Below, in pieces: positions 1 to 5,420 of a stretch of 5,420 nucleotides of DNA. Within the stretch, counting starts at the first letter, position 1. The number at the start of each line of letters is the position of its first letter. The DNA comes from an uncultured Flavobacteriales bacterium. GTDB lineage: Bacteria; Bacteroidota; Bacteroidia; Palsa-965. A program made the translations under genes and the position numbers. The DNA lies in NCBI GenBank assembly GCA_946478675.1, contig CAMLEF010000310.1, positions 1 through 5,420 of the forward strand. Reading direction: 5' to 3'. Under the pieces are notes generated by a model, which ran no database searches, was not told the origin of the DNA, and was given only the letters and a program-made list of their open reading frames with translations.

Positions 1-63
<63 letters not shown>

Positions 64-389: not shown

Positions 390-1820
390 ATGCTTTTAAA
401 CCTTACGACCACGCATCAGCCGACATCCGACCTCGGGTTCCTGTTGCACAAACATCCCGACAAATTCCAGTCGACGGAATTACCGTTCGGCACGGCGCAC
501 GTTTTTTATCCGGAAGCGACCGCTGCACGCTGCACGGCATCTTTGCTGCTGGACATCGACCCGGTGGCGCTTGTGCGAAACGGGCGTCATGAAGCGTTCA
601 GCCTCGGGCAATATGTAAACGATCGTCCGTATGCGACATCTTCGTTTCTCAGCGCGGCGATCGCGAAAGTTTTTTCTTCTGCGCTGAACGGGAATTGCAA
701 GAACCGCCCCGAGCTCGTGGAAGTGGCCATGCCGTTCGAAGTGCAGCTGCCGTCGGTGTCTGCGCCACGCGGAGGGGAAGTGCTCATCCGTAAATTATTC
801 GAACCGCTCGGATACGAAGTCGGGGTGAAGCATGTGCCGCTGGATGAAAAATTTTCGGAATGGGGCGAAAGCCGTTACTATTCGCTGACGCTGCGTCACA
901 CGGTCAGGCTGCATGAATTGCTTTCGCATCTCTATGTGCTTATCCCGGTGCTCGACAACAACAAGCACTATTACGTCGGCGAGAACGAGGTGGAAAAGCT
1001 TCTTGAGAAGGGCGGATCGTGGTTGCCGTCGCACCCGGAAAAAGAGCAGATCACGCGCCGTTACCTGCGTCATCATCTTGCGCTCACCCGCGCGGCGTTG
1101 GCACGTCTGCTTGAATCTGAAAACGAAGAAGAAGCGGATGAGGAGACAGAAGAAACGCCGGTCGCATTTACGCCGGAAGAGCAGGCCGCAGCGGAAGCGA
1201 TCATCGGGCGACGCAGGAACCTGCACGACGAGCGTCTCGATCTCGCGGCGGAAACGCTGGTGAAAAGCGGGGCGAAGCGCGTGCTGGATCTCGGTTGCGG
1301 CGAAGGAAAACTGTTGCAGCGCCTGATCAAACAGGGGCAGTTCGAAGAAATTCTCGGCATGGACGTTTCCTATCGCAGCCTCGCCATTGCGAAACGAAAG
1401 TTGAATTTCGACCAGATGACGCCCCGCAAAAAAGAACGCATCAATCTCGTGCAGGGATCGCTGCTCTACCGCGACAAACGTCTCGAAGGATTCGATGCCG
1501 CGGCGGTTATCGAAGTGATCGAGCACATGGAAGCCGACCGCCTCGCCGCATTCGAGCGTGTGCTGTTTGAATTCGCGCGGCCTAAAACCGTGGTGGTGAC
1601 GACGCCGAATGCCGACTACAATGAAAAATACGAAACGCTGAGCGCCGGCCGGTTCCGCCACGACGACCACCGTTTCGAATGGACACGTGCCGAGTTTGAA
1701 AGCTGGGCGAACCGTGTTGCAGAAAAAAATAATTACGAAGTGGCGTTCCAACCCGTCGGCGAATACGACGAAAAGATGGGCGCTCCTTCACAGATGGCTG
1801 TTTTTACCTATGGAAATTAA
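390..1820 (+). CDS. hen1: Hen1, 3'-terminal RNA ribose 2'-O-methyltransferase
   Basis: A 476-aa bacterial Hen1. It methylates the 2'-OH of the 3'-terminal ribose of a cut RNA before Pnkp seals it, making the repaired tRNA resistant to the same ribotoxin; its N-terminal half also activates the Pnkp ligase (known for the family). Seen: the N-terminus MLLNLTTTHQPTSDLGFLLH, typical of the family, fixes the start at 390. The N-terminal domain spans about 1-240, followed by an acidic linker at about 240-258. The C-terminal methyltransferase has SAM motif VLDLGCGEG at 298-306. Metal ligands of the Hen1 type are E375 and E378-H379 in EVIEHME, and H427 in DDHRFEW; their spacing equals that of the Clostridium thermocellum enzyme as I recall it (E366, E369, H370, H418). 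All catalytic residues are present. The stop overlaps the pnkp start by 11 bases. No Shine-Dalgarno is visible; a T-tract precedes the ATG. Confidence 0.95.
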   Translation: MLLNLTTTHQPTSDLGFLLHKHPDKFQSTELPFGTAHVFYPEATAARCTASLLLDIDPVALVRNGRHEAFSLGQYVNDRPYATSSFLSAAIAKVFSSALNGNCKNRPELVEVAMPFEVQLPSVSAPRGGEVLIRKLFEPLGYEVGVKHVPLDEKFSEWGESRYYSLTLRHTVRLHELLSHLYVLIPVLDNNKHYYVGENEVEKLLEKGGSWLPSHPEKEQITRRYLRHHLALTRAALARLLESENEEEADEETEETPVAFTPEEQAAAEAIIGRRRNLHDERLDLAAETLVKSGAKRVLDLGCGEGKLLQRLIKQGQFEEILGMDVSYRSLAIAKRKLNFDQMTPRKKERINLVQGSLLYRDKRLEGFDAAAVIEVIEHMEADRLAAFERVLFEFARPKTVVVTTPNADYNEKYETLSAGRFRHDDHRFEWTRAEFESWANRVAEKNNYEVAFQPVGEYDEKMGAPSQMAVFTYGN

Positions 1821-2172
1821 AGTACCCCAACTCTCGCTTGTTGTAATGGTCGGCGTCTCAGGCTCCGGCAAATCCAGTTTTGCGCGAAAGCATTTCAAAG
1901 CAACGGAGATCATTTCTTCCGATACCTGCCGCGCCTTGGTATCCGATGACGAGAACAACCAGTCGGCCACCACCGATGCATTCGAAGTGCTGCATTTTGT
2001 CGCGGCCAAACGCCTGAAGCGCGGACTGCTCACGGTGATCGACGCTACCAATGTTCAGCCGGAGGCCCGCAAGCCGCTCGTGCAGCTCGCGCGTGATTAT
2101 CATTGCCTGCCCGTGGCCATCGTGCTCAATATTCCCGAGCGCTGCGCGAGGGCTCGCTCGGCCTCGGCGTAG
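1810..2172 (+). CDS. pnkp: Pnkp, N-terminal fragment: kinase P-loop part, ended by in-frame TAG
   Basis: A 120-aa fragment of the polynucleotide kinase-phosphatase-ligase. Start ATG 1810 lies inside the hen1 3' end, giving the normal family N-terminus about 15 residues before the P-loop GVSGSGKSS (15-23, K21/S22). D38 and R41 in SSDTCR are the kinase catalytic/phosphate-binding residues, and IDATN (77-81) is the conserved strand. The kinase phosphorylates 5'-OH RNA ends. The product stops at TAG 2170-2172, just after NIPER (107-111), before the lid helix whose arginine contacts the ATP phosphates. The text after the stop, QRNEARPDRNFG, continues the family sequence in the same frame, so this is a premature stop and not a gene end. 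Alone the fragment is probably not an active kinase. It may be a broken gene, a recoded stop, or an assembly artefact. Confidence 0.85.
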   Translation: MEIKVPQLSLVVMVGVSGSGKSSFARKHFKATEIISSDTCRALVSDDENNQSATTDAFEVLHFVAAKRLKRGLLTVIDATNVQPEARKPLVQLARDYHCLPVAIVLNIPERCARARSASA

Positions 2173-2173
2173 C
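2141..2173 (+). other. GC-rich hairpin insertion carrying the premature TAG in pnkp
   Basis: GCTGCGCGAGG (2141-2151) and CCTCGGCGTAGC (2162-2173) form an imperfect stem with one bulge and one G-T pair around a 10-base loop. Compared with the family pattern, in which about three residues separate PE(K/R) from (E/Q)RN, there are ten codons here, so about 21 nt are extra, in frame. They fit best as 2152-2172, ending with the TAG. Removing them would read NIPER-CAR-QRNEARPDR, a normal Pnkp sequence. The stem right arm partly mirrors the sequence just upstream. Confidence 0.7.
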
Positions 2174-2214
2174 AACGCAACGAAGCGCGCCCTGACCGCA
2201 ACTTCGGCAGGCAC

Positions 2215-4398
2215 GTGCTGCGCCAGCAATCGACGCAGCTCCGCAAATCCATTAATAATCTTCGCCGCGAAGGATTCCGCCACATCTACGTGCTGGACTC
2301 GCCGGAAGAAGTGGACGCGGTGCTGGGCATCCGCCGCGAGCCGTTGTATAACGACAAACGCGACATCACCGGTCCGTTCGACATCATCGGCGACGTACAC
2401 GGCTGTTTCAGCGAATTGCAAACGCTGCTTCATAACCTCGGTTATAATATAACGCGCGTGCCCGAAACGGAAACGAACTTCGGGTTCAGCGTGACGCCGC
2501 CCGAAGGAAGAAAAGCCCTTTTCCTCGGGGATCTCGTCGACCGCGGCCCGGATTCGCCCGGCGTCCTGCGATTGGTGATGAGCATGGTGAACGCGGGCGT
2601 GGCGATGTGCGTGCCCGGCAACCACGACGCCAAACTGCTGAAAAAGCTCAATGGCGCCAACGTCAACACGAAGCACGGACTTGCGCTCACACTCGAGCAA
2701 CTCGAAAAAGAGCCGCCTGCATTCCTTGAAGCGCTGAAAAAATTTCTCGACGGGCTCATCAGCCATTACGTGCTCGATGACGGCAAGCTCGTGGTCGCAC
2801 ATGCCGGCCTGAAAGAAGAAATGCAGGGCAGGGGCTCGGGCGCTGTACGTTCTTTCTGCCTCTTCGGAGAAACCACCGGTGAAACCGACGAGTTCGGGTT
2901 GCCGGTGCGTTACAACTGGGCGCTCGAATACCGCGGCAAAGCGATGGTGGTGTACGGGCACACCCCCGTTCCGGAAGCGCAGTGGCTTAACCACACGATC
3001 GATATTGATACCGGTTGCGTATTCGGAGGAAAGCTCACGGCATTGCGTTACCCGGAGCGCGACCTGGTGTCCGTTCCTGCAGAACAAATGTGGTGCGAGC
3101 CGGTGAAGCCGTTGCATCCGCCGACAGAAACACGCACGGCCCAGCAGGAATACGACGATGTGCTCGATATTGACGATGTAACCGGCAAACGTTTCATCAG
3201 CACGCGCCTGCGCCACATCATCACGGTGCGCGAAGAGAATTCCATTGCCGCGCTCGAAGTCATGAGCCGTTTCGCCGTCAATCCGAAATGGCTGATCTAT
3301 TTGCCGCCGACGATGTCGCCTTCGGAAACCAGCGATGAGCCGGGTTTCCTCGAACACCCGTACGAAGCGTTGAGCTATTTTTCTTCGCGCGGCGTCAGGC
3401 AAGTCGTGTGCGAAGAGAAGCACATGGGTTCGCGTGCGGTGCTCGTGATCGCAAAAGACGAAGCGGCTGTTGCAAAACACTTCGGCATTACCAGTGAAGG
3501 CATCGGCATTTGTTACACGCGCACGGGCCGGAATTTTTTCACGGACAAAAAAACGGAACAGGAATTTCTCGCCCGCGTACAAGCAGCGCTCACGAAAACC
3601 GGTTTCTGGGAAAAGCACCAGACCGAATGGGTGTGCCTCGATGCAGAGCTCATGCCCTGGTCGGCGAAAGCGCAGTCGTTGCTGAAAGATCAGTATGCGG
3701 CGGTCGGCGCTTCGGCCAATGCTGCTTTGCCGGCTGCGGTAAACGTATTGCAACAAGCGGCGGCGCGCGGGATCGACGATGCAAAAAAATTCGCAGCGCG
3801 TTTTGCCGAACGTGAAGCCGACGCGGAAAAGTTCGTGGCTGCTTATCGCCAGTATTGCTGGACGGTGAATACAGTAGACGATTATCGCCTTGCGCCGTTT
3901 CATATACTCGCTACGGAAGGCGCCGTGCACACCGATAAGCCGCACACCTGGCACATGGAGCAGCTCCACGCATTGTGTGAAGCGGATGCAATACTGATGG
4001 CAACGCCGTATAAAATCGTTAACCTCGATGACAAAGCCAGTGTCGACGAAGCAGTGCAATGGTGGCAGGAGCTGACCGGCAAAGGCGGCGAAGGAATGGT
4101 CATCAAGCCGATGGACTTCGTCGCGATTTACAAGGACGATCCGCTGCAGCCTGCCATCAAATGCCGCGGCCGCGAGTACCTGCGTATTATCTACGGTCCC
4201 GAATACACGCAGCCGGAGCATCTCGCGCGATTGAAAAAACGTGCGGTTGCTGCGAAACGTTCGCTGGCCATGCGTGAATTTGCATTGGGCGTGGAAGGAC
4301 TGGAACGTTTCGTGAAGCAAGAGCCGCTTCGCCGCGTGCACGAATGTGTGTTCGGTGTGCTCGCGCTGGAAAGCGAAGAGATCGATCCCCGTTTATAA
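2215..4398 (+). CDS. pnkp: Pnkp, C-terminal part: kinase lid, 2',3'-phosphatase and ligase domains
   Basis: The rest of Pnkp, in the same frame as the N-terminal fragment. The open frame resumes at 2173 (QRNEARPDR); GTG 2215 is the first usual start codon but has no ribosome site, so it is nominal. Counting from ATG 1810 with the TAG as residue 121: the lid arginine is R123. The binuclear metallophosphatase has GDVHG (D195, H197), GDLVDRGP (D241, R245), GNHD (N271), AHAG (H331) and GHTP (H384); it removes 3' and 2',3'-cyclic phosphates. The C-terminal adenylyltransferase/ligase has motif I KHMG (K537, AMP acceptor), EGMVIKP (761-767) and IKCRG (K784). Full length would be 862 codons, near the roughly 870 aa of the clostridial enzyme. 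Phosphatase and ligase look intact, since these domains work when separated from the kinase in known homologues. Their expression needs read-through, bypass or re-initiation. The gene is followed by a 2-base gap. Confidence 0.9.
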   Translation: MLRQQSTQLRKSINNLRREGFRHIYVLDSPEEVDAVLGIRREPLYNDKRDITGPFDIIGDVHGCFSELQTLLHNLGYNITRVPETETNFGFSVTPPEGRKALFLGDLVDRGPDSPGVLRLVMSMVNAGVAMCVPGNHDAKLLKKLNGANVNTKHGLALTLEQLEKEPPAFLEALKKFLDGLISHYVLDDGKLVVAHAGLKEEMQGRGSGAVRSFCLFGETTGETDEFGLPVRYNWALEYRGKAMVVYGHTPVPEAQWLNHTIDIDTGCVFGGKLTALRYPERDLVSVPAEQMWCEPVKPLHPPTETRTAQQEYDDVLDIDDVTGKRFISTRLRHIITVREENSIAALEVMSRFAVNPKWLIYLPPTMSPSETSDEPGFLEHPYEALSYFSSRGVRQVVCEEKHMGSRAVLVIAKDEAAVAKHFGITSEGIGICYTRTGRNFFTDKKTEQEFLARVQAALTKTGFWEKHQTEWVCLDAELMPWSAKAQSLLKDQYAAVGASANAALPAAVNVLQQAAARGIDDAKKFAARFAEREADAEKFVAAYRQYCWTVNTVDDYRLAPFHILATEGAVHTDKPHTWHMEQLHALCEADAILMATPYKIVNLDDKASVDEAVQWWQELTGKGGEGMVIKPMDFVAIYKDDPLQPAIKCRGREYLRIIYGPEYTQPEHLARLKKRAVAAKRSLAMREFALGVEGLERFVKQEPLRRVHECVFGVLALESEEIDPRL

Positions 4399-4400
4399 CA

Positions 4401-5030
4401 ATGAAAATCGTAGCCATTTCCGACACGCACGGACAGCATGAAGCGCTTCAGTTACCGAAGGGCGACATGCTGATCCATGCGGGTGACCTCAGCAAGCGGG
4501 GAACGGAGCAGCAGGTGCGGCTCTTCCTCGATTGGTTTGCGGCGCAGGATTTCCGCTACAAAATTTTTATTGCCGGGAATCATGATTTCTTTTTTGAACG
4601 CGAACCGGCTCGTCGGATTGCAGAGCTCATCCCGCCGGATGTTATTTATCTGAACGATTCGATGACCGAGGTGGAAGGATTGCGCATCTGGGGATCGCCG
4701 GTACAGCCGTGGTTTTATGATTGGGCGTTTAACCGGCAGCGCGGTGAAGAAATCCGAAAGCATTGGGACCTGATCCCGGAGAACACCGATGTGCTCATTA
4801 CGCATGGCCCGGCAGCCGGCATTCACGACATGACCATTCACGGCGAGCATGTGGGTTGTGTCGATCTGCTCGCGCGCATCGAAGCGGTGCAGCCGCGCCT
4901 GTTCATCTGCGGTCATATTCATGAAGCGCATGGAATCCTTCCGGGAAATCCGACTACATTCATCAACGCCGGCGTGCTGGATGAGCATTACATCCTTCGT
5001 CATCCGCCCGTTGAAATCGAACTGAAATAA
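4401..5030 (+). CDS. Calcineurin-like metallophosphoesterase of the RNA repair operon
   Basis: A 209-aa single-domain metallophosphoesterase, resembling the MPPED/UPF0046-like branch. Start ATG 4401 follows the pnkp stop by 2 bases and places the first metal motif at the N-terminus. Motifs in order: SDTHG (D8, H10), HAGDLS (D29), GNHD (N60-H61), THGP (H135) and GHIHEAHG (H172, H174). This is a complete binuclear metal site. There is no signal peptide or membrane segment, so it should act in the cytoplasm. The family hydrolyses phosphomono- or diesters. The substrate here is unknown; the operon position suggests an RNA end or a 2',3'-cyclic phosphate or nucleotide, adding to or replacing the phosphatase of Pnkp. 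That assignment is inference from context. Confidence 0.88.
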   Translation: MKIVAISDTHGQHEALQLPKGDMLIHAGDLSKRGTEQQVRLFLDWFAAQDFRYKIFIAGNHDFFFEREPARRIAELIPPDVIYLNDSMTEVEGLRIWGSPVQPWFYDWAFNRQRGEEIRKHWDLIPENTDVLITHGPAAGIHDMTIHGEHVGCVDLLARIEAVQPRLFICGHIHEAHGILPGNPTTFINAGVLDEHYILRHPPVEIELK

Positions 5031-5032
5031 AA

Positions 5033-5420
5033 ATGAAACCGACGATCCTCGAAAAAATCACGCAGCTGGAGCAAACGCATGACATCCGTATCCTGCTCGC
5101 CTGCGAATCCGGAAGCCGCGCATGGGGATTTCCATCTCCTGACAGCGATTACGATGTGCGTTTCATTTATGTACACCGTCGCGATTGGTATTTGTCGATC
5201 GTTGAAAAAGCCGATGTCGTAGAGCTGCCGGTCAATGCCGTGCTCGACATCAATGGCTGGGACCTGCGAAAAGCGCTGCGCCTTACCGCGAAGTCCAACG
5301 CCGTGATCTTCGAATGGATGCAATCGCCGGTGTTGTATCGCAGTAATGATTTCTTTCTCTCGCAGTTTCGCAGGATCGCCCCTGATTATTTTTCACCGAT
5401 CGCAGCGATGCATCATTACC
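5033..5420 (+). CDS. rlaP: RlaP-type Pol-beta nucleotidyltransferase, 3' end beyond window
   Basis: The N-terminal 129 residues of a DNA-polymerase-beta-fold nucleotidyltransferase, cut by the window edge. Start ATG 5033 is 2 bases after the preceding stop, within AAATAAAAATG. The signature ESGSRAWGFPSPDSDYDVRF (25-44) carries the family GS (G27-S28) and the metal-binding pair D39/D41; this phrasing is typical of the RlaP family (PF10127), described as RNA-ligase-associated Pol-beta enzymes in RNA repair operons. The family role is thought to be adding nucleotides to damaged RNA ends, or adenylating them, before ligation; this has not been settled to my knowledge. The middle part continues in frame without damage. 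Family members are about 250 aa, so roughly half the gene is seen. Co-transcription with hen1-pnkp and the metallophosphoesterase is very likely from the spacing. Confidence 0.85.
   Translation, partial: MKPTILEKITQLEQTHDIRILLACESGSRAWGFPSPDSDYDVRFIYVHRRDWYLSIVEKADVVELPVNAVLDINGWDLRKALRLTAKSNAVIFEWMQSPVLYRSNDFFLSQFRRIAPDYFSPIAAMHHY

Follow-up and report, generated by a model that had tools for sequence, protein, structure and literature searches.

The locus described here raises the question of what becomes of a bacterial pnkp gene that is closed by an in-frame TAG, with the remainder of the gene apparently sound. The initial annotation of this stretch of DNA (5,420 nt, hereafter the window) had reasoned that a dead gene would be expected to gather more damage than this one shows, and had offered as explanations a very recent mutation, an assembly error, or expression through read-through, ribosome bypass or re-initiation. 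Taking all of the evidence into account, the case appears to be one of unremarkable recent damage to the gene, or of faulty assembly, and not one of a novel enzyme or an unusual mode of decoding; of the earlier reading, the recent mutation and the error are compatible with our results, whereas the premise about damage and the proposals of read-through, bypass and re-initiation are not borne out.

Organization of the locus

The arrangement of a Pnkp-Hen1 cassette is present in the window, where hen1 adjoins pnkp, the 3' end of the former and the start of the latter sharing 11 nt (Table 1). A hen1 match was also found close to pnkp at 62 of 68 loci. Translation of positions 1810-4398 gives a single TAG, at codon 121, in a frame that is otherwise open to a TAA at 4396-4398, confirming that the two halves of pnkp share one reading frame and that the stop lies where it had been placed. 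Both halves are recognized by the TIGR04075 profile, the N part with 193 bits over model positions 1-118 and the C part with 1251 bits over positions 115-851, and the Pfam matches (kinase-type AAA_33, Metallophos and PNKP_ligase) likewise support the earlier statement that the kinase, phosphatase and ligase parts are otherwise intact.

The order of these domains is that of bacterial Pnkp, for which solved relatives are available (kinase 4gp6, phosphatase 4j6o and ligase 3ty8/4drf), and in its three recognizable domains and the hen1 gene directly upstream the locus resembles the Pnkp-Hen1 system defined by TIGR04075. It differs in that the single open frame of ∼850 codons is absent, since a 30-nt segment located where the lid begins shuts the frame behind codon 120. 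This segment sits just before Arg-116, Arg-120 and Arg-123 (family numbering), which do not vary across the 29 sequences aligned and of which Arg-116 and Arg-123 are presumably the lid arginines of the kinase. The claim that only the TAG breaks pnkp thus holds insofar as the TAG is the sole stop, but the codon is only the last of the segment, which brings a net gain of 21 nt. On the minus strand an antisense ORF of 827 residues (1858-4341) crosses pnkp, including the TAG segment, and is probably a by-product of codon usage.

Table 1. Features of the window
Feature	Position	Strand	Basis or remark
tRNA, 3' part	1-62		Rfam RF00005
hen1, 3'-terminal RNA ribose 2'-O-methyltransferase, intact	390-1820	+	TIGR04074, 703.6 bits
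pnkp, polynucleotide kinase-phosphatase-ligase gene, interrupted	1810-4398	+	TIGR04075 and Pfam
pnkp, N part, open for 120 codons up to the TAG; P-loop kinase lacking lid and last helices	1810-2172	+	translation, Pfam, solved relative 4gp6
30-nt segment, no counterpart in aligned relatives; ends with TAG	2143-2172	+	alignment to P0001 and relatives
In-frame TAG	2170-2172	+	translation
pnkp, C part of 741 codons and TAA, covering the end of the kinase domain, the metallophosphatase and the RNA-ligase domain	2173-4398	+	PF16542, 605 bits
GTG, 42 nt downstream of the TAG; no in-frame start lies nearer	2215-2217	+	
Metallophosphoesterase gene, intact	4401-5030	+	PF00149/PF12850
rlaP, RNA-repair-associated polymerase-beta-like, cut by window end	5033-5420	+	PF10127, 183.5 bits

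The closest relative and the 30-nt segment

From a database of 5.8 billion, the 8000 candidates with the most words in common were scored, and the best match among them is P0001, an 843-residue protein with an open frame on one contig of 7396 nt. Outside the segment it is identical to the window at 830 of 840 residues (99 of the N part and 741 of the C part), with 734 of 741 residues identical in the C part, and it is the only relative this close among the proteins scored. Searches for closer relatives reached lower values: among the whole genomes searched (396, 6 and 395) the best Pnkp is at 70% and the best Hen1 at 61%, the best segment among 57 loci on genome contigs is at 68%, the best full-length match in 113 plasmid records is at 67%, and the viral contigs searched gave none.

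Ten codons of the window, of which the TAG is the final one, stand against three residues in the open frame of P0001, the difference of 21 nt being in frame. The comparison of pnkp in close relatives that had been proposed as a check therefore returned a P0001 gene that is open and of normal length, and the 119 other full-length relatives listed are likewise normal, with 23 residues across the lesion site in 119 of 119. In the 64 fetched loci whose two halves share a frame, the spacing is that of P0001 in 48 and shorter in 16 (one or three residues), and none is longer. The G+C content of the segment is 0.77 compared with 0.57 for the gene, a value reached by 52 of 2559 same-size windows within the gene, and by codon position it is 0.5, 0.9 and 0.9 (over ten codons only) compared with 0.62, 0.40 and 0.67 in the N part. 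Judged by its composition, the segment reads as filler and not as coding sequence of pnkp.

An insertion at nearly the same place in the lid is seen in P0178, a 195-residue protein from a JGI contig of 3697 nt, where nine extra residues (SEALLRSAD) are followed by a resumption of the frame; it is the only such insertion among the visible tails of the 120 N-terminal pieces listed.

Age of the lesion

The ten amino acid differences between the window and P0001 were polarized on P0002 and P0003, which places four on the window side (P0001 positions 130, 290, 419 and 543) and three on the P0001 side (positions 51, 61 and 132), with three ambiguous (positions 52, 451 and 565). They give no sign of long decay, the numbers being too few to test. 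A random change in pnkp is nonsense 0.045 times as often as it is missense. Counting nonsense changes only, 4-10 missense changes on the branch to the window would be accompanied by 0.18-0.45 further stops, and in the absence of selection the chance of seeing no further stop is 0.83 to 0.64. At this divergence, with less than half an extra stop expected, the argument that a dead gene would gather more damage fails; the rest of pnkp probably looks healthy because little time has passed.

Recent break, assembly error or unusual expression

We regard this pnkp copy as having probably been inactivated recently, at the level of the strain, through a small insertion-deletion. Some nine bases of the original sequence, where the lid helix begins, would have been swapped for 30 bases of non-coding-like filler, which would happen to keep the frame yet end in TAG. 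Translation would then stop after 120 codons to give a kinase fragment without the lid, no phosphatase-ligase would be made at a useful level, and Hen1, encoded upstream, should be unaffected. On this account we infer that the segment lies in a living genome, arose in one event and leaves no full product to be made. The pair of features that marks a recently disrupted gene, an open close relative and a single lesion, is found in pnkp. The same open relative, being the sole close one seen, would also be expected under the main rival explanation, in which the segment stems from a chimeric or low-quality join in assembly or consensus and the actual gene has an open frame like that of P0001; both a very recent mutation and an assembly error, as initially proposed, are compatible with our results. 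We consider such an error possible but rather unlikely. Many of the internal stops found in public assemblies of bacteria are artefactual, with coverage, platform and assembler all of influence (PMC11017572), and the window may itself be a short metagenome record; however, the other three genes of the window carry no frame damage, the change is a clean exchange of 30 bases for 9 (+21 nt) rather than a single-base indel or miscall, and the letters of the segment would have to derive from some DNA.

That the two halves share one frame is also what would be expected if the ribosome passed the TAG by read-through, stop-codon recoding or bypass to give a full-length and perhaps regulated Pnkp, the explanation to which we give the least credence of all. 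A kinase model in which Gln is placed at the TAG still resembles the kinase of C. thermocellum (4gp6_A; TM 0.86, normalized by query length), and a full product is thus not absurd, the fold being kept. The read-through product would, however, carry seven extra residues in the conserved lid helix, and mean model confidence there falls to 55 and 58 (residues 111-120 and 121-130) compared with 87 and 77 in an uninterrupted control (L056), although some loss of confidence is to be expected where the extra residues have no aligned rows. The helix that is unbroken at 110-119 in the control is interrupted at 117 in the model, which suggests that read-through would probably yield a disturbed lid. With the read-through junction as query, 12 proteins were recovered, P0001 plus 11 more, and all are of normal length at this place; RNA folding at the segment is ordinary (z = -0.53), and no recoding signal was found. 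A recoded TAG would be expected in several genes; none is in frame in hen1, the metallophosphoesterase gene and the partial rlaP, the three complete genes end in TAA, and the one in pnkp is the only TAG to judge by. T4 gene 60 is a case of programmed bypass, in which the stop stands right after the take-off codon. The window resembles it in having a stop and extra nucleotides within an otherwise continuous frame, but on inspection there are no matched take-off and landing codons, the TAG lies at the 3' end of the segment and not directly after a take-off codon, and coding is not restored, since a hop over the segment cannot give back the three residues that were replaced. Given the junction search and these lost residues, neither read-through nor bypass has positive support.

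Re-initiation, in which ribosomes would stop at the TAG and restart at the GTG at 2215 to make a 727-residue kinase-less phosphatase-ligase, we hold to be very unlikely. The ORF from this GTG is complete, with both the phosphatase, from residue 68 of the C part onwards, and the ligase domain whole. In the structure of the Pnkp1-Rnl-Hen1 complex, a related but different assembly, the kinase and phosphatase modules are described as having essentially no contact with each other (PMC4411300), so that a kinase-less piece is not absurd; in that complex Hen1 makes contact with the kinase domain as well. The GTG is a weak start preceded only by an AGG three bases before it, it is the valine codon of a conserved HV[LI]R stretch that is also found in relatives without any stop, and the first in-frame ATG (2578) falls inside the phosphatase domain. 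Among the matches listed there is no kinase-less relative with the same break. With so poor a start, 42 nt from the stop, the proposal lacks positive support. Slimmer still is the prospect that the segment has been kept in the population and that the C part is made by coupled re-initiation at this GTG, giving a natural kinase-less phosphatase-ligase that works with Hen1; were this true, the enzyme would act on RNA ends that already bear a 5'-phosphate.

Returning to the recent inactivation, the finding as it stands matters little, since it concerns a single damaged copy of a repair gene that is already well described. If the segment were real and fixed, it would show that a lineage can drop the kinase step or the whole of Pnkp yet retain hen1, which would inform on how dispensable the RNA repair system is.

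Broken pnkp copies at other loci

Both halves of pnkp were found, at the thresholds used, in 66 of the 72 fetched loci, although L061 is a second fetch of L001 and the independent loci are thus slightly fewer. In 63 of the 66 the halves lie in one frame with no stop in the matched stretch, and the other three are disrupted, through a frame change in L021 and L069 and a TGA within the kinase in L037; broken copies of pnkp are thus not rare. The three breaks are each at a different place, as expected for chance damage or assembly errors. These copies are like the window in being otherwise good genes with one frameshift or stop, but unlike it in the site of the break and in having no comparable segment in the printed translations. 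At the level of the order, 141 of 396 genomes have some match to pnkp, of which 35 are strong (E below 1e-50) and the weak ones are partial, mainly of the phosphatase part; among the matches listed no stop was found in the strong ones, and in two of the genomes pnkp is recovered as two pieces, with G339 corresponding to L069.

We also considered a natural class of truncated kinases, which was rejected given that the 120 pieces listed, out of 2128 N-terminal pieces found, either stop or continue into other residues, and do so at scattered places. The segment of the window is in none of the visible tails of these 120, where the tails marked NA show the last 40 residues only, so that the place of the lesion is invisible in some. 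One database pnkp fragment, P0155, has a tail that holds SEEHTSELQS, which we take to be the translation of a sequencing adapter; database fragments of this sort can have artefact tails.

Possible origins of the segment and a repeat at the tRNA

No local template for the segment stands out in the window. The best gapped inverted match, at about 2058-2084, was equalled in 66 of 200 shuffles and the gapped direct match in 149 of 200, and exact matches of 7 nt (inverted) and 6 nt (direct) were equalled in 514 and 1272 of 2000 shuffles, respectively. A short mobile palindromic element would be another source, in which case further copies would be expected in the genome or its relatives; the segment occurs at one place in the window and, with up to three mismatches allowed, in 0 of 396 genomes, the order sampled being that of a 70% relative and maybe not that of the window itself. 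Partial matches to the segment occur in 15 plasmid records, each covering at most 58% of the query. In viral contigs the two 20-mers gave one and zero matches and the 26-mer zero, and the lone match, in a G+C-rich stretch, was taken as chance. None of these searches yielded a usable source for the segment. A structured RNA at the site was rejected, folding being equally ordinary for RNA and DNA (z = -0.52 for the latter), and no Rfam family reaches its gathering score there.

At the start of the window, the partial tRNA is without an ARAGORN match because the gene is cut. A 20-nt piece of it (27-46) recurs 77 nt downstream at 104-123 with 18 of 20 positions identical, and the pattern covering both copies was reached in 0 of 200 shuffles. 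This repeat may be what an integration event at the tRNA has left behind.
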